Below, piece after piece: positions 8,716-46,737 of a DNA stretch of 64,000 nt. The notes under the pieces were generated by a model, which made no database searches, was not told the DNA's origin, and was given only the letters and a program-made list of their open reading frames with translations. Source of the DNA: Arthrobacter sp. SLBN-83 (GTDB lineage Bacteria > Actinomycetota > Actinomycetes > Actinomycetales > Micrococcaceae); assembly GCF_006715285.1 (NCBI RefSeq), contig NZ_VFMX01000001.1, forward strand, positions 124,001 through 188,000, written 5' to 3'. How positions within the stretch are numbered: position 1 is the first letter of the stretch; each line of letters opens with the position of its first letter. Made by a program: the position numbers and the translations under genes.

Positions 8716-9645
8716 CTAGTCGTCGCCGCGGAGGATGGCCAGCAGGCGGATGATTTCCACGTACAGCCAGACCAGCGTGACGGTGAGGCCAAAGGCAGCC
8801 GTCCAGGAGAAGCGCTGCGGGGCGCCGCTGCGGACGCCCGCCTCGATGCTGGTGAAGTCCATGATGAGCGAGAAGGCAGCAAGTCCGATGGCCAGCAGGC
8901 CGATGAAGACGCCCAGCGGGATGCCGAAGATTTCAAAACTGGTGCGCAGGCCGAACGGGCTCTGCACGGCGCCTGTCCACATCATGACCATGTTGATCAG
9001 CGCGAACACGGCGTAGCCAATAAGGGCGATCATGAAGAACCGCATGGCGCGGGGCGTGGCCCGGACCTTGCCGCTCTTGAAGAGGACCAGGGTCACGGCG
9101 AAGACGGACAGCGTGCCGATCACGGCCTGCAGGCCAACACCGGGGAACATGCCGTCGAGGATCCGGGTCAGGCCGCCAAGGAACAGGCCCTCGAGGGCTG
9201 CGTAGGCCAGGATCAGCGCGGGCGACGGCTGCTTCTTGAACGTGTTGACCAGAGCCAGCACGAAGCCGCCCAGGGCACCGACGATCATCAGCAGCGAGGC
9301 CAGGCCCTGTGCCACCACAAGGGTGACTGCGGCGCCGGCAATCACGGCCGCGAGGCAGGCAGCGGTCTTCATGATGACGTCGTCAAACGTCATGCGGCCG
9401 GTGTCTGCGGGACCGGCGGAGGGCTGGGCGTACATCTGCCGCAGCTGTTCGTCGGTCATGTTCTGGGACTGCGCGCCCCAGCCCTGGCCGGAGGGAGCCT
9501 GGCCGTACGACTGCTGGCCATACGGCGACTGCCCGTACGGCTGCTGGCCGTAGGGAGCGCCATAAGGAGCCTGCGGGACAGGCGGTGCCTGGGTGGCTCC
9601 ACGGAAACTCTTTCCGTTGAAGATCGGGTTGCCGCCAAGTGCCAT
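8716..9645 (-). CDS. Bax inhibitor-1/YccA-like membrane protein
   Basis: A 309-residue integral membrane protein of the bacterial Bax-inhibitor/YccA-related group. A low-complexity cytoplasmic N-terminus (residues 26-55 made of PYGQ-like units) precedes about seven membrane segments starting near residue 90. Features include LILAYAALEGLFLGGLTRILD in the middle and a short C-terminal helix ending LLAILRGDD. Its physiological role is unknown; relatives conduct Ca2+ or modulate FtsH. The ATG at 9645 has GGAGGAA eight bases upstream; longer readings upstream lack a ribosome site. Confidence 0.85.
   Translation of the reverse strand: MALGGNPIFNGKSFRGATQAPPVPQAPYGAPYGQQPYGQSPYGQQSYGQAPSGQGWGAQSQNMTDEQLRQMYAQPSAGPADTGRMTFDDVIMKTAACLAAVIAGAAVTLVVAQGLASLLMIVGALGGFVLALVNTFKKQPSPALILAYAALEGLFLGGLTRILDGMFPGVGLQAVIGTLSVFAVTLVLFKSGKVRATPRAMRFFMIALIGYAVFALINMVMMWTGAVQSPFGLRTSFEIFGIPLGVFIGLLAIGLAAFSLIMDFTSIEAGVRSGAPQRFSWTAAFGLTVTLVWLYVEIIRLLAILRGDD
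9481..9570 (-). repeat. PYGQ-type coding repeat
   Basis: Residues 26-55 of the Bax-inhibitor-like protein consist of degenerate PYGQ/SYGQ/APYG units, giving an imprecise 12-15 base repeat at the DNA level. The region is Pro/Tyr/Gly/Gln-rich and should be disordered. Confidence 0.75.
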
Positions 9646-9726
9646 TGCGGTGTTCCTCCATGTGGGTGTGGGTGATGGTTTGGTTACGCTACCAATTCCC
9701 ACGTGGCGGCGGCCCGGAAAGTTCCC

Positions 9727-9785
9727 CAGGGGCCCGGTTGCAACCGAACCGTGACCGTTGCGTCCCTGCACGCACCGGGCCCCTG
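9727..9785 (-). terminator. Candidate terminator of the liv operon
   Basis: Twelve-bp perfect arms (9727-9738 and 9774-9785) enclose 35 bases immediately after the livF stop. The loop is long and the following T-run is poor. Confidence 0.45.
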
Positions 9786-9793
9786 CAGCGGAA

Positions 9794-10507
9794 CTATCCC
9801 ACGCCCAGGTAGGCCTCCTTGACGGAAGGGTCCTCCAGCAGCTCCTTGCCTGTGCCGCTGCGGGTGATCTCCCCCGTTTCCAGCACGAAGGCGCGGTGCG
9901 CCCCGGCCAGTGCCTGGTTGGCGTTCTGCTCCACCATGAGGACAGTGGTGCCCTGGTTGTTGATTTCCTTGATGATCTTGAAGATCTGGCGGATGAACTG
10001 CGGTGCCAGGCCCATGGACGGCTCGTCCAGCAGCAGCAGCTTCGGATTGGACATCAGGGCCCGTCCGATCGCCAGCATCTGCTGCTCACCGCCGGACATC
10101 GTGCCGCCGAACTGCTTCTCCCGCTCCTTCAACCGGGGAAACAGGTCGAAGACGCGGTCCAGGTCCTTCGCAACGCCGCTCCTGTCCTTGCGCCCAAAGG
10201 TTCCCATGTCCAGGTTCTCCATGACGGTCATGCCCGGGAAAATGCCGCGCCCCTCGGGGGCCTGCGAAATCCCGTGGACCACCCGGATGTGGGCCTTCAT
10301 CTTGGTGATGTCCTGGCCGGCGAAGGTGATCTTGCCTTCCGTGCAGTTCAGCAGGCCGGAAATGGTCCGCATGGTGGTGGTCTTGCCTGCGCCGTTGGCA
10401 CCGATCAGCGCCACCACTTCACCTTCCTCCACGGTGAAGGAAATGTCCCGCAAGGCCTGGATGCGGCCATAGTGGACGGATACGCCCTCAAGTTCAAGCA
10501 ACGTCAT
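9794..10507 (-). CDS. livF: Branched-chain amino acid ABC transporter ATPase LivF
   Basis: Second ATPase of the HAAT-type importer, acting at the inner membrane face as partner of LivG. It is 237 residues long, with Walker A GANGAGKTTTMR near residue 37, signature MSGGEQQMLAIGRAL, Walker B LLLLDEPSMGL and switch His in MVEQNANQAL (the usual H is replaced by Q-N context, as is common in LivF). The start overlaps the end of livG by 14 bases. It is the last gene of livJHMGF. Confidence 0.93.
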   Translation of the reverse strand: MTLLELEGVSVHYGRIQALRDISFTVEEGEVVALIGANGAGKTTTMRTISGLLNCTEGKITFAGQDITKMKAHIRVVHGISQAPEGRGIFPGMTVMENLDMGTFGRKDRSGVAKDLDRVFDLFPRLKEREKQFGGTMSGGEQQMLAIGRALMSNPKLLLLDEPSMGLAPQFIRQIFKIIKEINNQGTTVLMVEQNANQALAGAHRAFVLETGEITRSGTGKELLEDPSVKEAYLGVG

Positions 10508-11465
10508 CTTCGGGCTCTCCTAGGTAGGCGGCAATAACGCGGGGATCCTCGCGGATCTCGCGCGGCAGTCCGTCCGCGATCTTCTTCCCAAACTCCAGCA
10601 CCACGATCCGGTCTGTCACGCCCATCACCAGCTTCATGTCGTGCTCAATCAGCAGCACCGTGTAGCCCTCATCCCTGATGGTGCGGATCAGCGCCATCAG
10701 CTCCTCTTTCTCAGCCGGGTTGAACCCGGCCGCAGGCTCGTCAAGGCACAGCACCTTTGGGTCGGTGGCCAGCGCACGCGCGATTTCGAGCCGGCGCTGG
10801 TAGCCGTACGGGAGTTGCCGGGACAGCACATGAGCATGGCTGCCGATACCCACGAAGTCCAGCAGGGCCATGCCGCGTTCGATGGCCGACTTTTCCTCCC
10901 GGATGTGGGTGGGCAGGCGCAGCAGTGCCCCGCCTACGCTGGTCCGGTGCCGTGCGTCCAGGCCCACCACCACGTTCTCCAGGGCCGTCATTTCGCCGAA
11001 CAGGCGGATGTTCTGGAACGTGCGCGACAGGCCCAGGCGCGTGATCTTGTGCTGCTTGATGCCGTTCAGGACCTGGCCCTCCAAAACCACTTTCCCGCTG
11101 GTGGGCTTGTAAACACCGGTCATCGCGTTGAAGCAGGTGGTCTTGCCTGCGCCGTTGGGTCCAATGAGCCCCAGGATCTCGCCACGCTTGATGTTGAAGC
11201 TGACGTTGTCCAGCGCCACGAGGCCACCGAACTTGATGGTCAGGTTCTGCACCTCGACGATGTTGTCGCCCACCTTGACCGCGATATCGCGGTCCGGAGC
11301 CACCTTTTCGGCCAGTTCCTGGTCCACCCCGGCCTCGGCCAGGGCATCCATGTCCAGTTCCGGCGCGACAGGGGCCGCGGGGCTTTCCTGGGTTGCGGCG
11401 GCGGCCTCATGTGCCGGTTGCTCTTCCACGCTGCTGGAGCCTGCGTGCCTTTCCTCGGAGCTCAT
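10494..11465 (-). CDS. livG: Branched-chain amino acid ABC transporter ATPase LivG
   Basis: ATPase subunit with Walker [13 protein letters not shown], a LivG-type signature [15 protein letters not shown], Walker [12 protein letters not shown] and switch His in IEHDMKLVM. It is 323 residues, longer than the usual 255-260, because of an N-terminal extension of about 70 residues rich in Glu, Ala and Pro before the first beta strand ([13 protein letters not shown]). The ATG overlaps the livM stop by four bases (ATGA), which supports this start; an open frame continues upstream but lies inside livM. Confidence 0.93.
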
Positions 11466-12709
11466 GCCTCCGCTCCTCTCTGCCCGGCGGTGCGGGTATC
11501 GGGGCCCGACGCCGGAGTGTCCGTGTCTTTGGGTTCCGTGGCGTCGCGGCTGGTGACCTTGTTCAAGGCCGTCCGGCCGTAGGCAAGCAGTCGCTGCCGG
11601 GCCGGGAGCAGACCTTGCGAACGGAAGATCATGATCAGCACCAGCGCAATGCCGAAGATCAGGTATTTGTACTCGGCAATGGCAGTGAACCTGAGCGGGA
11701 TGTAGCTGACCAGGGCTCCGCCGAGAATGGCCCCCACCTTGTTGCCGGCGCCACCCAGCACGACCGCGGCGAGGAACAGGATGGACGTGGTGACGTCGAA
11801 CTTCTGGTTGTTGACGAACCCCACCTGGCCGGCGAACAGGGCGCCGGAAAGGCCGCCGACGGCAGCACCGATGGCGAAGGCCCACACCTTGTATTTGAAG
11901 GTGGGAACACCCATGATTTCCGCGGCGTCCTCATCTTCGCGGATGGCGATCCAGGCGCGGCCCACCCGGCTGCGTTCCAGGTTGCCCACCAGCAGGGTGA
12001 CGATGATGATGATGGTCAGGGTCAGCCAGTACCAGGGGACGCCGTTTGAGTTGGAGAAGATCGGCTGGCCGTCAGCCCCGTCGCCGGGCGGGTGGCCCAC
12101 GTTCTGGAAGCCCACCTGGCCCTTCATGGCCGGGATGATGGTGGCGAGGATGCGGATGATCTCGCCGAAGCCGAGCGTCACGATGGCGAGATAGTCGCCC
12201 CTGAGCCGGAGGGTGGGCACGCCCAGCATGACGCCGAAGAACATGGTGACCGCCATGGCCACCGGAAGCGTCCACAGGTAGGGAATGTGCAGGTACGGCG
12301 AATCCGGGCTGGTCAGCATGGCGGCAACGTACGAACCCACCGCGAAGAAGGCAACGTACCCCAGGTCCAGCAGGCCGGCGTACCCCACCACGATATTGAG
12401 TCCCACCGCGATCAGCGCAAAGCGTGCCATGTCGAAGCAGGCAAGGGCGAAGTTGTTGCCGGGTTCGGTGGTGATGATGGGCGGATTGATCAGCGGCAGC
12501 AGGTAGGCCAGGACCACGACGACTATCAGGAATGCCCACTGTTGCTGGCGGGACAAGGCCTGCCACCGGTCGGAGAAGTAGCCGGGTTTCCGTTTCCCCT
12601 GCTGCCGGAGCGCGCTCCTGCCCGGGGCTTTCGCCGAGGCTTCGCGGTCCTCTGCAGCCTGTTCGGCAGCCGCTGTCCGCAGCGGCGTGGGGCCGTCCGT
12701 CATACTCAT
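11462..12709 (-). CDS. livM: Branched-chain amino acid ABC transporter permease LivM
   Basis: Second membrane subunit of the importer. It is 415 residues, with a polar basic N-terminus of about 55 residues and then about ten membrane segments. The permease signature for coupling to the ATPase is visible at [19 protein letters not shown]. It overlaps livG by four bases downstream, and its ATG overlaps the livH stop by four bases. AAGGAGC lies upstream of the start. Confidence 0.93.
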
Positions 12710-42845: not shown

Positions 42846-44147
42846 CTATTTGCCGATGGCCGCCTTGCTCTCGCTCAGCCACTGTTCGGCTGCCTTCTCA
42901 GGCGTGAGCCGCTTGAACAGCACGTCCGTGTTGATCCGGGCAGTGATCTCCGAAACGGCGGTGGAACCGGTGGGGCCGATGTACGTGGGTGCGAAGTCCA
43001 TCTTTCCGATCTGGTTGATGTACTCCGCTTCCACCTTGCCTTGCGGTGTGAGCAGGTCCTGGATGGCGGCGCGCATTTCAGAGTTCCCGGGAATGCCCCT
43101 GTCGCTCTGGATGATCTTGGCTGCGGCCGGGTTGTTGACCAGGAAGTTCACAAGCTTTGCGGCGGCATCAGTGTGCTTGCTACGGGCTGAGATCGTGTAG
43201 AACTGCGAGGACTGGAGCCAGATTCCCGGGGTCGGCTTTTCGCCGGGCAGCTTGAGCAGTTTCAGGTCTGCGCCGGAGGCCTTGCTGAGGGCGGTCAGCG
43301 AATTGCTCCAGGTGAGCATCATCCCGGCCTTGCCCATGCCCATCAGGGTCTGCTCCGTGCTGACGTTGAGCTTTTCCACCGTCTCCGACGCACTCGGAGC
43401 AGCACCGGATTCGCTGAGCTTCAGCGAGTAGTCAAAGTAGTCCTGCACCGTCTGCTTGCTTAGTCCCAACTGCCCGTCCTGGGTGTAAAGCGATTCTCCG
43501 CGCTGTCGGGCGAAGGCATCCAAAGAGTCATGGGTGAGGACTGTGGCCGTTCCGTAGGTCCCCTTGGGGCTCTTGGCCGTGATGTCGCCGGCAATCCTGG
43601 CGAAGTCATCCCAGCTCCATGTGCTGTCATCCGGCATGGGGACGCCCGCCGCCTTGAAGACCGCGGGATTCACGACGATCGCCAAGGCGTTGGCACCCGT
43701 GGAGACTCCGTACTGCTTGCCCTTGACCTGGCCGTTTTCCAGGGCGCCCTGGTCGATCTTGGATAAGTCCAGGGAGCCCTGCACCTTGGTCAGGTCCAGC
43801 AGCGCGCCCCTGTTGGCGTACTCCGCTGGGTAGGCACCGCCCATTGTGATGACGTCCGGGGCGTCGTTGGCGGCCATTTGGGTGGCGAGTTTGTCGAAGT
43901 AGCCGCTGATGTCGCCGTATTCCGGCTTGACCTTAATGTTGGGGTTGGCAGCCTCGAATTCCGCAATGGCCTTGTTGGTCAGGTCTGCCCGCCCGGCATT
44001 GCCCCACCAGGAGAACCGGATTTCCACCGGCCCGTCCTCGGCCTTATTGGATGACGGGCTGGAACAGCCGGCGGTCACGGCCAAAAGGGCCGCGGCCGAC
44101 AGGACGGCAAGGGATTGGCGGATTGTTCGGGCAGCATGACGCGACAT
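42846..44147 (-). CDS. Sugar ABC transporter substrate-binding lipoprotein (orphan)
   Basis: Extracytoplasmic solute-binding protein of the carbohydrate family 1 group, 433 residues. It has a twin-basic N-terminus, hydrophobic core and lipobox TAGC (Cys28). Then EIRFSWWGNAGRADLTNKAI starts the mature fold, with APDVITMGGAYPAEYANRG and SWDDFARIAGDI typical of oligosaccharide receptors. No permease or ATPase genes are next to it. It is divergent from the glycosidase-like gene and shares LacI-type palindromes with it. The ATG at 44147 gives a proper signal peptide; a weak AGGAAG is 13 bases upstream. Confidence 0.88.
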   Translation of the reverse strand: MSRHAARTIRQSLAVLSAAALLAVTAGCSSPSSNKAEDGPVEIRFSWWGNAGRADLTNKAIAEFEAANPNIKVKPEYGDISGYFDKLATQMAANDAPDVITMGGAYPAEYANRGALLDLTKVQGSLDLSKIDQGALENGQVKGKQYGVSTGANALAIVVNPAVFKAAGVPMPDDSTWSWDDFARIAGDITAKSPKGTYGTATVLTHDSLDAFARQRGESLYTQDGQLGLSKQTVQDYFDYSLKLSESGAAPSASETVEKLNVSTEQTLMGMGKAGMMLTWSNSLTALSKASGADLKLLKLPGEKPTPGIWLQSSQFYTISARSKHTDAAAKLVNFLVNNPAAAKIIQSDRGIPGNSEMRAAIQDLLTPQGKVEAEYINQIGKMDFAPTYIGPTGSTAVSEITARINTDVLFKRLTPEKAAEQWLSESKAAIGK

Positions 44148-44181
44148 TGGGCAGGCTTCTTCCTTGACTGGGAGGGGGCGG

Positions 44182-44193
44182 GAAAGCGGTTTC
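44182..44193 (-). promoter_or_regulatory. LacI-type operator candidate 1
   Basis: GAAAGCGGTTTC, a near-palindrome whose exact reverse complement recurs at 44340-44351. It lies 35 bases upstream of the solute-binding protein start. Confidence 0.55.
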
Positions 44194-44194
44194 G

Positions 44195-44206
44195 TGAAAC
44201 GTATCA
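44195..44206 (-). promoter_or_regulatory. Near-palindrome TGAAACGTATCA
   Basis: Centre CG with 10 of 12 positions symmetric, adjacent to operator candidate 1. Weak evidence on its own. Confidence 0.3.
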
Positions 44207-44264
44207 ATAGCTTTGGGGGTCGTCAATAGAGGGGGCATTGGGCTTTTTGGACTTTCCCGCGCGT

Positions 44265-44276
44265 CGAAAGCTTTCG
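44265..44276. promoter_or_regulatory. LacI-type operator candidate 2
   Basis: CGAAAGCTTTCG is a perfect 12-bp palindrome in the middle of the divergent 301-base region, of the shape bound by LacI-family repressors of sugar genes. Confidence 0.55.
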
Positions 44277-44339
44277 GCGCAGGGCAGTGCGCGGAAGGCC
44301 TTGACGGCGCCGCGGAAGCCAGTAAAAGATGGGAGCACA

Positions 44340-44351
44340 GAAACCGCTTTC
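44340..44351 (+). promoter_or_regulatory. LacI-type operator candidate 3
   Basis: GAAACCGCTTTC is the reverse complement of candidate 1 and lies about 100 bases upstream of the glycosidase-like gene. One site near each divergent gene suggests shared control. Confidence 0.55.
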
Positions 44352-44448
44352 TAGCGCCCCTGCCCCTTATTCGCACAGAGGGCAGCCATCCGTGCATTCG
44401 GAGAAAGCGCGGCGTCAGCCACACAAAACCCGTAGGAGGGCGTGCACC

Positions 44449-46737
44449 GTGCACAGCCGCAGCAGCACCGTACGGCCGCAGGCCATGGCCCAGGCAAAAC
44501 AGCCACCAGAACCTATCGACAGGAAGGTGCTGGTCCAGCGCCACAATGTCCAGCAGCAGAAGCTTGATCCGCGGAGCCCTATATCGGTAGGCAACGGCGA
44601 GTTCGCCTTCACCATGGACCTCACTGGCCTTCAAACCTTGCCAGCTGCGTATCCTGTAGGCCCGCGCGAGGATGCGCTCCCCCCGGGAACCCTACTGGGC
44701 ACCCAGTCCACGTGGGGCTGGCATGCAGCGCCGGGCGGGGAAGGCTATACGCTGGCAGCTTCCACTGTCCGTTACGATTCACCGCGCGGTCCGGTGCCGT
44801 ACGTGGGCATGGTGGGAGACATCGTGAACGATCGCGAAACGGGCACCTCCGTGGGGGAAACATGGCTGCGTGCCAATCCGCACCGCTTGGACCTGGGACG
44901 CATCGGCTTCCAGCTTCTGCATGACGGGGCCAGCCGGCCGATCAACCCCGGTGAGCTCTCCGACACCGTCCAGACCTTGGATTTGTGGTCGGGTGTTGTC
45001 GCCAGCACCTTCACTGTTGCCGGCCACCCCGTGCAGGTCACCACGGCCTGCAATCCGCACCGCGACGAACTCGGCATCCGCGTGGAGTCACCTGCGCTCG
45101 GCGACGGCCTGGTCATCGCCCTCGACTTCCCGTACGGATCTGAGGCGTGGCACAACGCCGCGGACTGGAGCCGGCCGGACGCCCACACCACAACCCTCAA
45201 CGGACCCCTGCCTGCAGTGCTTCATCCGGGGGCCACGAGCTGGACGGTGGACCGCGAGCTGGACAACTCGCAGTACCACGTAGTGGTCACGGGGCAGGGC
45301 CTGGTGGTGGAGCAGTCGGGACCGCACCAAGTACGCATCCGCCGGGATGACCTCCCGCGCCAGGACGTCATCGACCTGTCCATCGAATTCATTTCCGGAG
45401 GCGACGGCGACTGCATCCCCCGCGCCGGCGCCGGCCTTTCACGGGTGGCAGGCAAGGTGGGCGCAGGCAGGAAGGCCCGTCCCGGCGTCGAGCTTTCCCC
45501 GGACGCCCCTCCGCTTGCCGGCGAAAACCAGCCCGGCAGCAACGTTGCGACTGCGTCAACGGAGCACTGGCCCAGGTTCTGGCGCTCCGGAGGTGCAATA
45601 GAACTGGCCGCTACGCCGGACCCCAGGGCCAGGGAGCTGGAACGACGCATCGTCCTCTCCCAGTACCTGACCGCCGTCAACTGCTCCGGATCGCTGCCGC
45701 CGCAGGAAACGGGCCTGGTGTGCAACTCGTGGCGGGGACGCTTCCACCTGGAGATGCACTGGTGGCACGCTGCCCATTTTGCGCACTGGGACCGGGTGGA
45801 GCTGCTCCTCCCCTCCCTGCGCTGGTATTCAACAGTGCTGGAGACGTCCCGGCAGACGGCGCGGGCACAGGGGTTCGACGGCGCCCGCTGGCCAAAGCAG
45901 GTAGGCCCGGATGGACGGGAGAGCCCCAGCCCGATCGGTACGTTCCTTATTTGGCAGCAACCGCATCCCATCCACTTGGCGGAACTGGTGTATCGGGCCA
46001 GCCCCAGCCGGGAGGTGCTTGAGGAGTTCGCGGACATCGTGTTCGAATCCGCGGCGTTCATGGCCAGCTTCGCCCACCCCACGCCGCAGGGTTTCGAACT
46101 TGGCCCGCCGCTCATACCGGCGCAGGAAAGCTACGGATCCATGCGGGCAGAGGTCACGAATCCCACCTTTGAACTTGCCTACTGGCAGTGGGGCCTCCGG
46201 ACGGCCGCCGCCTGGCGGGAACGGCTGGGACTGGAACCGATGCAGGCCTGGCAGAGGGTTGCTGACGGGCTGGTGCGCCCGCGCGTGGTCAAGGGTGTCT
46301 ACGCAGCCATCGACGTGGAACCGTTCACCATCCGGACTGACCATCCCTCCATGCTCTGCGCCCTCGGCGTCCTCCCGCTGACGGACCTGATCGATGAAGA
46401 CATCATGCGGGCCACCCTGGACGACGTGCTGGCCGACTGGGACTGGGGCAGCACCTGGGGCTGGGACTATCCCGTGATAGCCATGGCCGCCGCACGGCTG
46501 GGCGATCCGGAAGCCGCCGTAAACGCGCTCCTGCAGGACGCCGGCAAAAACACGGTCCTGCCAAACGGGCACAACCGCCAAACGGATTCCCTGCCGCTGT
46601 ACCTTCCGGGCAATGGCGGTCTGCTTGCCGCCGCCGCGCTGATGGCCGCCGGGTGGGACCAGGGTCCGGATCGCCATGCTCCCGGTTTCCCGTCCGGCTG
46701 GACCGTGAAGTGGGAAGGTCTGGTGCCGGCGCCCTGA
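44449..46737 (+). CDS. Six-hairpin glycosidase-like protein (GH65-related)
   Basis: A predicted cytosolic protein of 762 residues without signal peptide. The N-terminal half (to about residue 370) looks like a beta-sandwich domain, with SPISVGNGEFAFTMDLTGLQT at its start. The C-terminal half looks like an (alpha/alpha)6 barrel with LVCNSWRGRFHLEMHWWHAAHF, a pattern seen in GH65-like and related six-hairpin glycosidases. The catalytic acid cannot be fixed by eye. The GTG at 44449 is chosen because TAGGAGG is nine bases upstream; ATG 44485 and earlier open frame are alternatives. It is divergent from a sugar-binding lipoprotein. Confidence 0.72.
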   Translation: MHSRSSTVRPQAMAQAKQPPEPIDRKVLVQRHNVQQQKLDPRSPISVGNGEFAFTMDLTGLQTLPAAYPVGPREDALPPGTLLGTQSTWGWHAAPGGEGYTLAASTVRYDSPRGPVPYVGMVGDIVNDRETGTSVGETWLRANPHRLDLGRIGFQLLHDGASRPINPGELSDTVQTLDLWSGVVASTFTVAGHPVQVTTACNPHRDELGIRVESPALGDGLVIALDFPYGSEAWHNAADWSRPDAHTTTLNGPLPAVLHPGATSWTVDRELDNSQYHVVVTGQGLVVEQSGPHQVRIRRDDLPRQDVIDLSIEFISGGDGDCIPRAGAGLSRVAGKVGAGRKARPGVELSPDAPPLAGENQPGSNVATASTEHWPRFWRSGGAIELAATPDPRARELERRIVLSQYLTAVNCSGSLPPQETGLVCNSWRGRFHLEMHWWHAAHFAHWDRVELLLPSLRWYSTVLETSRQTARAQGFDGARWPKQVGPDGRESPSPIGTFLIWQQPHPIHLAELVYRASPSREVLEEFADIVFESAAFMASFAHPTPQGFELGPPLIPAQESYGSMRAEVTNPTFELAYWQWGLRTAAAWRERLGLEPMQAWQRVADGLVRPRVVKGVYAAIDVEPFTIRTDHPSMLCALGVLPLTDLIDEDIMRATLDDVLADWDWGSTWGWDYPVIAMAAARLGDPEAAVNALLQDAGKNTVLPNGHNRQTDSLPLYLPGNGGLLAAAALMAAGWDQGPDRHAPGFPSGWTVKWEGLVPAP

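Follow-up and report, generated by a model that had tools for sequence, protein, structure and literature searches.

The YesOPQ transport system of Bacillus subtilis, as outlined in PMC5730181, contributes to the import of pectin and probably relies on MsmX as a shared ATPase. Here, we describe a locus of Arthrobacter sp. SLBN-83 which encodes a relative of YesO and which lies within a stretch of 64,000 nucleotides (hereafter the window, corresponding to positions 124001-188000 of the 4.42 Mb chromosome). The locus consists of a minus-strand gene for an orphan sugar-binding protein (SBP) and a divergent plus-strand gene, designated P0002, for a glycosidase-like enzyme. Based on the findings of this analysis, we favour the reading, at a probability of roughly 0.6, that the pair represents an outlying module of a pectin/rhamnogalacturonan regulon under LacI control, in which the likeliest role of P0002 is the release of galacturonic acid.

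Both open reading frames (ORFs) are supported as genes by homology, and no permease or ATPase gene adjoins them, other ATP-binding cassette genes being located elsewhere in the window, in agreement with the initial annotation of this locus. That annotation had also noted the 12-mer GAAAGCGGTTTC ahead of the SBP gene and its inverted copy GAAACCGCTTTC on the enzyme side, both of which were recovered exactly, and had read them as sites of one LacI repressor, a reading that a lack of further copies would have refuted; further copies do exist. At no more than one mismatch the 12-mer has two matches in the window against 0.27 expected, a number reached in five of 100 shuffles. Genome-wide, seven exact copies were found as opposed to none for a reversed control, while the degenerate motif GAAANCGNTTTC occurs at 14 places in 4.4 Mb against two for the control, and 12 of these 14 places lie beside pectin, uronate or rhamnose genes or YesO-like SBPs, as judged by our own gene calls and Pfam (gene calls around the sites and in the loci of relatives were based on a simple codon score). 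A palindromic site thus recurs ahead of functionally linked genes, as is characteristic of a LacI regulon. An A precedes the motif in eight of the 12 linked sites and a T follows it in ten. The operon preceded by three of the sites (Table 1) encodes Gfo/Idh, epimerase-type, 5-dehydro-4-deoxyglucarate-dehydratase-type, enolase-superfamily and aldehyde-dehydrogenase proteins, of which only the dehydratase scores above its NCBIfam cut-off (399.5 versus 278). The rhamnogalacturonan-lyase-type gene of the regulon is of the PL26 type. The SBP-P0002 pair therefore probably belongs to a scattered, LacI-controlled pectin gene set.

Conservation of the site was assessed in the best 80 of at least 570 relatives (at least 588 stretches), which provided 27 orthologous SBP-enzyme loci and 53 other loci, individual loci being cited below by L numbers. 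The site was present at no more than one mismatch in the intergenic region of all 27 orthologous loci (reversed control, 0), with an exact copy in 17 and two exact copies in eight. The 53 non-orthologous loci hold 20 exact motif matches, compared to one for the control; 18 of the 20 are intergenic by our own gene calls, and 17 precede an enzyme (10), SBP (4), GH43 (1) or permease (2) gene. Nine of the ten matches before an enzyme gene cannot be counted as independent, all stemming from one Arthrobacter-type group in which this gene occupies a second position on the chromosome. An enzyme gene at a second chromosomal place, with no adjoining SBP gene and the motif still upstream, was observed in L030, L031, L032, L033, L035, L036, L039, L040 and L084. 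In L040 (Pseudarthrobacter chlorophenolicus Mor30.16, 10001-12223) the enzyme frame closes approximately eight codons into the match, the gene being broken near its start or misassembled. L081 (WNZI01000004.1), recorded as Vibrio cholerae, resembles Actinobacteria in carrying the motif together with a LacI (57%) and permeases (62-71%), and this assembly is probably mislabelled or contaminated.

The initial annotation had included in the shared control a perfect palindrome, CGAAAGCTTTCG, in the middle of the intergenic region. The palindrome is indeed present, but its role as a control element was rejected as it occurs in none of the 27 orthologous intergenic regions; it is without the central CG that the other sites have, its two matches in the window at up to two mismatches compare with 1.80 expected, and it is probably a chance occurrence. 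Looping between the two operators was likewise rejected: they are 158 bp apart here, compared to 120-166 bp in seven orthologs that likewise have two exact sites without an intervening gene (L008, L009, L010, L011, L021, L023 and L047), such that helical phase is not maintained. The distance is 1064 bp in L014, where a gene lies between the operators. A scan of 44100-44520 for sigma-70-type promoters found nothing.

Table 1. Features of the SBP-P0002 locus (window coordinates) and places of the degenerate motif (chromosome coordinates)
Feature	Position	Strand	Basis or context
Orphan sugar-binding lipoprotein (SBP), YesO-like, 433 amino acids (aa)	42846..44147	-	SBP_bac_1 2e-31; YesO 5z6b 4.4e-61
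Lipobox VTAGC with lipid-anchor cysteine, codon 28 of SBP	44064..44078	-	By eye from translation
Operator-like site 1, GAAAGCGGTTTC, 34 bp ahead of SBP start	44182..44193		Exact
Palindrome CGAAAGCTTTCG, probably outside control region	44265..44276		In 0/27 orthologous intergenic regions
Operator-like site 2, GAAACCGCTTTC, inverted copy of GAAAGCGGTTTC, ~98 bp upstream of P0002 GTG	44340..44351		Exact
Ribosome-binding site AGGAGG of P0002	44434..44439	+	Sequence, by eye
Enzyme gene P0002, 762 aa, GTG start, GH65/GH95/GH139-like fold	44449..46737	+	AlphaFold2, Foldseek, VIA-align; no Pfam/NCBIfam model
Codon of E560, aligned with GH65 general acid	46126..46128	+	Alignment to 7fe3; invariant in A1, A2
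Codon of D673, invariant, proposed general base	46465..46467	+	Guess from position
GAAANCGNTTTC	168182, 168340		SBP-P0002 pair
GAAANCGNTTTC	540350, 3814764		Orphan SBPs
GAAANCGNTTTC	1741150		Pel9A-like beta-helix
GAAANCGNTTTC	1892312		PcRGLX-like rhamnogalacturonan lyase
GAAANCGNTTTC	1921485		Pectate lyase
GAAANCGNTTTC	2104735, 2104803, 2104879		Between LacI gene and uronate-type operon
GAAANCGNTTTC	2116657		Between SBP and permease pair with second SBP
GAAANCGNTTTC	2149588		Major facilitator superfamily sugar transporter downstream of rhamnose genes (recognised by eye)

The SBP start was placed at ATG 44147 and not at TTG 44207 of the mechanical ORF. For P0002 the most plausible start is GTG 44449, 9 nt past AGGAGG; the mechanical ORF begins at ATG 44329, a start which would place the second operator-like site within the ORF. 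The SBP_bac_1 domain scores 110.6 bits (curated cut-off 26), and the closest solved relative of the protein is YesO. Most of the 27 orthologous loci, which are located on contigs of Arthrobacter, Pseudarthrobacter and Paenarthrobacter, share the gene order alpha/beta hydrolase, SBP, enzyme, BrkB-type. Many orthologs carry a gene of approximately 306-321 aa between SBP and enzyme (e.g. L012, L013 and L014, about 8900-9920), which in L012 is a GH43 by Pfam; in our strain, a gene of this kind is absent from the corresponding interval (44148-44448).

Since the LacI, permease, SBP and enzyme genes adjoin in other Actinobacteria, the missing parts of the importer are probably the genes at 2.10-2.12 Mb, together with an orphan MalK-type ATPase at 0.58 Mb. 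Of the 53 non-orthologous loci, 25 have both permeases in the vicinity of the enzyme gene, these being 62-75% (PERM1) and 57-77% (PERM2) identical to the pair encoded at 2116902-2118780 of our strain, and 18 of the 53 show the order permease, permease, SBP, enzyme, including Jiangella, Nonomuraea and Plantactinospora. The nearest own paralog of PERM1 is 54% identical and belongs beside another SBP; at 2121118-2126681, an SBP gene is located on the plus strand and a GH42 gene on the minus strand. Twelve LacI genes, picked by a motif from 16 loci and located no farther than 7 kb from the enzyme gene, were compared with all 22 LacI-type genes of the genome, and for 11 of them the top match was the LacI at 2103590-2104624 (54-59%, the next being at most 40%). 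Five own SBPs group together, i.e. the query and four others at 42-49%, two of which flank the permease pair while three are orphan. Two MalK-type ATPases were found, one (582616-583698) with no adjoining permeases and the other inside a complete importer. The importer parts are thus probably encoded elsewhere and common to several SBPs, which is in line with the initial annotation, where a genome scan for the LacI gene and the missing permeases was suggested and the rest of the importer was placed elsewhere or taken to be shared.

P0002 matched no Pfam or NCBIfam model at E values up to 0.001, its family being unnamed in these collections, while a CAZy number may exist. The protein is without a recognisable signal peptide, consistent with the cytosolic glycosidase-like partner of the initial annotation. 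Its AlphaFold2 model (mean predicted local distance difference test score of 85.6) was compared with solved structures by Foldseek and VIA-align, the best match being 7fe3, a glycoside hydrolase (GH) family 65 alpha-1,2-glucosidase (Z 28.1, root-mean-square deviation 3.2, 586 aligned), followed by other GH65, GH95 (Z 21.5-23.5) and GH139 (Z 22.1-22.3) members. The N-terminal beta-sandwich and alpha-toroid fold of GH95 and GH139 is present in the model (Z 21.5-23.5 over 574-616 residues), which by itself is no family membership. A profile of the P0002 family retrieved 7fe3 at 1.9e-6 among solved structures, and no GH95 or GH139 sequence match arose in this search or in the P0002 domain search. 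The Pfam GH65 central domain reaches 11.1 bits in P0002, below its cut-off of 27; among 49 family members, 38 have some match to Pfam GH65 at E up to 10 (best 2.6e-5) and five a weak match to Pfam GH95 (best 0.0092).

Two alignments were used for residue analysis: A1, of 49 rows, comprises the window protein and 48 of the 80 fetched relatives, omitting 32 (for the most part close copies of the Arthrobacter type, along with L040 because of its frameshift, L063 because of its open end, and L081), and A2 has ten rows. E560, which aligns with the GH65 general acid, is invariant in 49/49 and 10/10 rows, as are E435, H632 and D673; N709 is not invariant in A2. The general base of 7fe3, E616, aligns with N709, such that the GH65 base is not kept (in a weak sequence alignment), and its -1 residues W343 and D344 align with L434 and E435. 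K538/Q539 align with R629/T630, or with D631/H632 upon a two-column shift that we judge better, and the Trp, Asp, Lys and Gln of the GH65 -1 subsite are accordingly not kept, there being no Lys-Gln at the aligned place. As judged from these alignments, P0002 keeps the acid of GH65 but neither its base nor its glucose-binding residues; the proposal of D673 as general base is a guess from its position. A phosphorylase reading is not favoured, as the phosphate-site serines of GH65 phosphorylases are replaced by G671/W672 in a weakly aligned stretch.

Concerning the substrate, the imported sugar is probably pectic and not an alpha-glucoside because of the regulon content, the relatedness of the SBP to YesO and the gene neighbourhoods in several cases. 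Nine plasmid matches to the enzyme were found and six regions looked at; on all four Asticcacaulis plasmids the homolog is transcribed divergently from pelA and TonB receptors are encoded nearby, with GH88 in three of the four regions, oligogalacturonate lyase and kduI in two and GH28 in one. Other homologs have as neighbours GH106 (L079, L087), a pectic acid lyase domain (L069), GH28 (L055), GH43 (L037, L012) or a GH51-type gene (L070). P0002 could fill a gap in galacturonosyl cleavage, since the genome gave no GH28 and no GH88/105 match (PL22, kduI and kduD were not searched for) while GH78-type genes exist at three places, including the 2.13 Mb locus. The alpha-1,2 bond between galacturonic acid and rhamnose may suit P0002, as several members of the fold cut alpha-1,2 bonds. 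Among 149 family genomes, a PL26-type lyase was found in seven and P0002 in eight (seven full length, one in pieces), with weak partial P0002 matches only in six further genomes; the two occur together in four, for which the hypergeometric probability is 1.2e-4, uncorrected for kinship. Further genes observed in the loci of relatives were a Gfo/Idh oxidoreductase fused to DUF6807, which recurs in pectin-type loci (L128:16062-18101, L053:7985-9985), a GH5-type gene (L041:1479-2861 and its cluster), a relative of 9ku5 (putative beta-xylosidase GE32 by name) that recurs in 13 of the 80 loci, and ThuA-type and Gfo/Idh-type genes downstream of the enzyme gene in L084 (13654-15422).

In the mechanism that we propose, extracellular pectate-lyase-type enzymes of the regulon would produce oligosaccharides, which the SBP and its four similar counterparts would capture and pass to the one common permease pair, putatively powered by the orphan MalK/MsiK-type ATPase. 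Inside the cell, the PL26-type lyase, the GH78-type rhamnosidases and P0002 would dismantle these oligosaccharides, P0002 being a predicted inverting exo-glycosidase of an unnamed family with a GH65/GH95/GH139 fold that may employ E560 as its acid, with D673 perhaps serving as the base. The most likely task of P0002 would be the release of galacturonic acid, e.g. from the alpha-1,2 bond to rhamnose, and the galacturonic acid released would feed the uronate-type operon beside the LacI gene, whose product would repress the genes of the regulon via GAAANCGNTTTC. A bolder version, which we put forward as tentative, is that P0002 founds a new GH family of galacturonidases on the GH65/GH95 fold, with the base relocated to D673, which replaces GH28/GH105 in actinobacterial pectin use and extends to Planctomycetes, Chloroflexi and Alphaproteobacteria, and that one permease pair acts as a hub for approximately five scattered SBPs, each with its own operator.

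Several observations weigh against the favoured reading. Two of the 14 GAAANCGNTTTC sites (991435 and 3716528) are without a fitting pectic neighbour, a number equal to the control count, and one of the 12 operon-linked LacI genes (L076) is closer to another own LacI. The homologs on Paenarthrobacter and Streptomyces plasmids are located beside GH3 and GH97 with no pectin genes, and GH2 and GH3 lie beside homologs in L072 and L068. P0002 and the PL26-type lyase coincide in only four genomes, PL26 being missing from four of the eight P0002 genomes and P0002 from three of the seven PL26 genomes. The substrate assignment rests on gene context, the recognition of rhamnose genes and signal peptides was by visual inspection, and the pectate lyases of the regulon would leave unsaturated ends that an ordinary exo-galacturonidase does not cut.

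The alternative that survives best, unlikely as we consider it to be, retains the pectin regulon and importer and has P0002 cut another pectic bond, either alpha-L-rhamnosyl or that of side-chain arabinose, galactose or fucose; the fold relatives GH95 and GH139 act on fucosides, GH139 on rhamnogalacturonan II, and GH43 and GH51-type genes adjoin the enzyme gene in the loci named above, whereas rhamnose release seems covered by the three own GH78-type places and by GH106 in L079 and L087, and it is galacturonosyl cleavage by GH28 or GH88/105 for which no match was found. It is distinctly improbable that P0002 substitutes for GH88/105 by cleaving the unsaturated galacturonosyl-rhamnose generated by the PL26-type lyase: this lyase is in the regulon and none of the seven PL26 genomes has GH88/105, but the Asticcacaulis clusters carry GH88 and the homolog side by side, P0002 is missing from three of those seven genomes, and GH65-type chemistry is unsuited to a vinyl ether. 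Less credible again is that the sites belong to a general LacI-family catabolite regulator and are uninformative on substrate, a view to which the 22 LacI-type genes and the resemblance of the motif to cre-type and other LacI-family operators lend some weight, but which sits poorly with a total of only 14 places across 4.4 Mb, 12 of which share one theme, and with three sites at the very LacI gene whose orthologs are found in the operons of relatives. That the pair serves alpha-glucosides, as suggested in the initial annotation, with P0002 a GH65 alpha-glucosidase or phosphorylase, is highly improbable despite 7fe3 being the top fold match, as the 7fe3 residues W343, D344, K538 and Q539, its base E616 and (in the weakly aligned stretch) the phosphate-site serines are replaced and the regulon, YesO kinship and gene contexts are pectic.

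Under the favoured reading, a conserved and widespread enzyme family that is unnamed in Pfam and NCBIfam gains a narrow candidate task, i.e. galacturonosyl cleavage of imported pectin fragments, in bacteria that seemingly are without the usual enzymes for it. The use of one importer by several scattered SBPs in soil Actinobacteria, if true, would change the annotation of orphan binding proteins.

A literature search turned up no publication that deals with this regulon or its motif in Arthrobacter. In comparison with known bacterial LacI-family pectin or rhamnose regulons, the present one shares the LacI repressor type, a palindromic operator with central CG and catabolic genes. P0002 resembles FjGH65A (7fe3), as presented in PMC8626586, in its whole-length fold and in the general acid at E560, but is only about 15% identical and without its base and -1 residues. 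With the GH95 alpha-fucosidases and the GH139 rhamnogalacturonan II fucosidase it shares the fold and, in the case of GH139, a link to pectin, but its family has no sequence match to them among solved structures and touches Pfam GH95 weakly. The closest counterpart of the system as a whole is YesOPQ/MsmX of Bacillus subtilis, to which, as that system is outlined in PMC5730181, it corresponds in an SBP akin to YesO (4.4e-61), a pectic context and a multipurpose ATPase encoded elsewhere, and from which it differs in that the SBP is orphan and far from its likely permeases, with five similar SBPs for one candidate permease pair. The system is therefore one of a known kind in an unusual layout, of which the enzyme family is the newest part.

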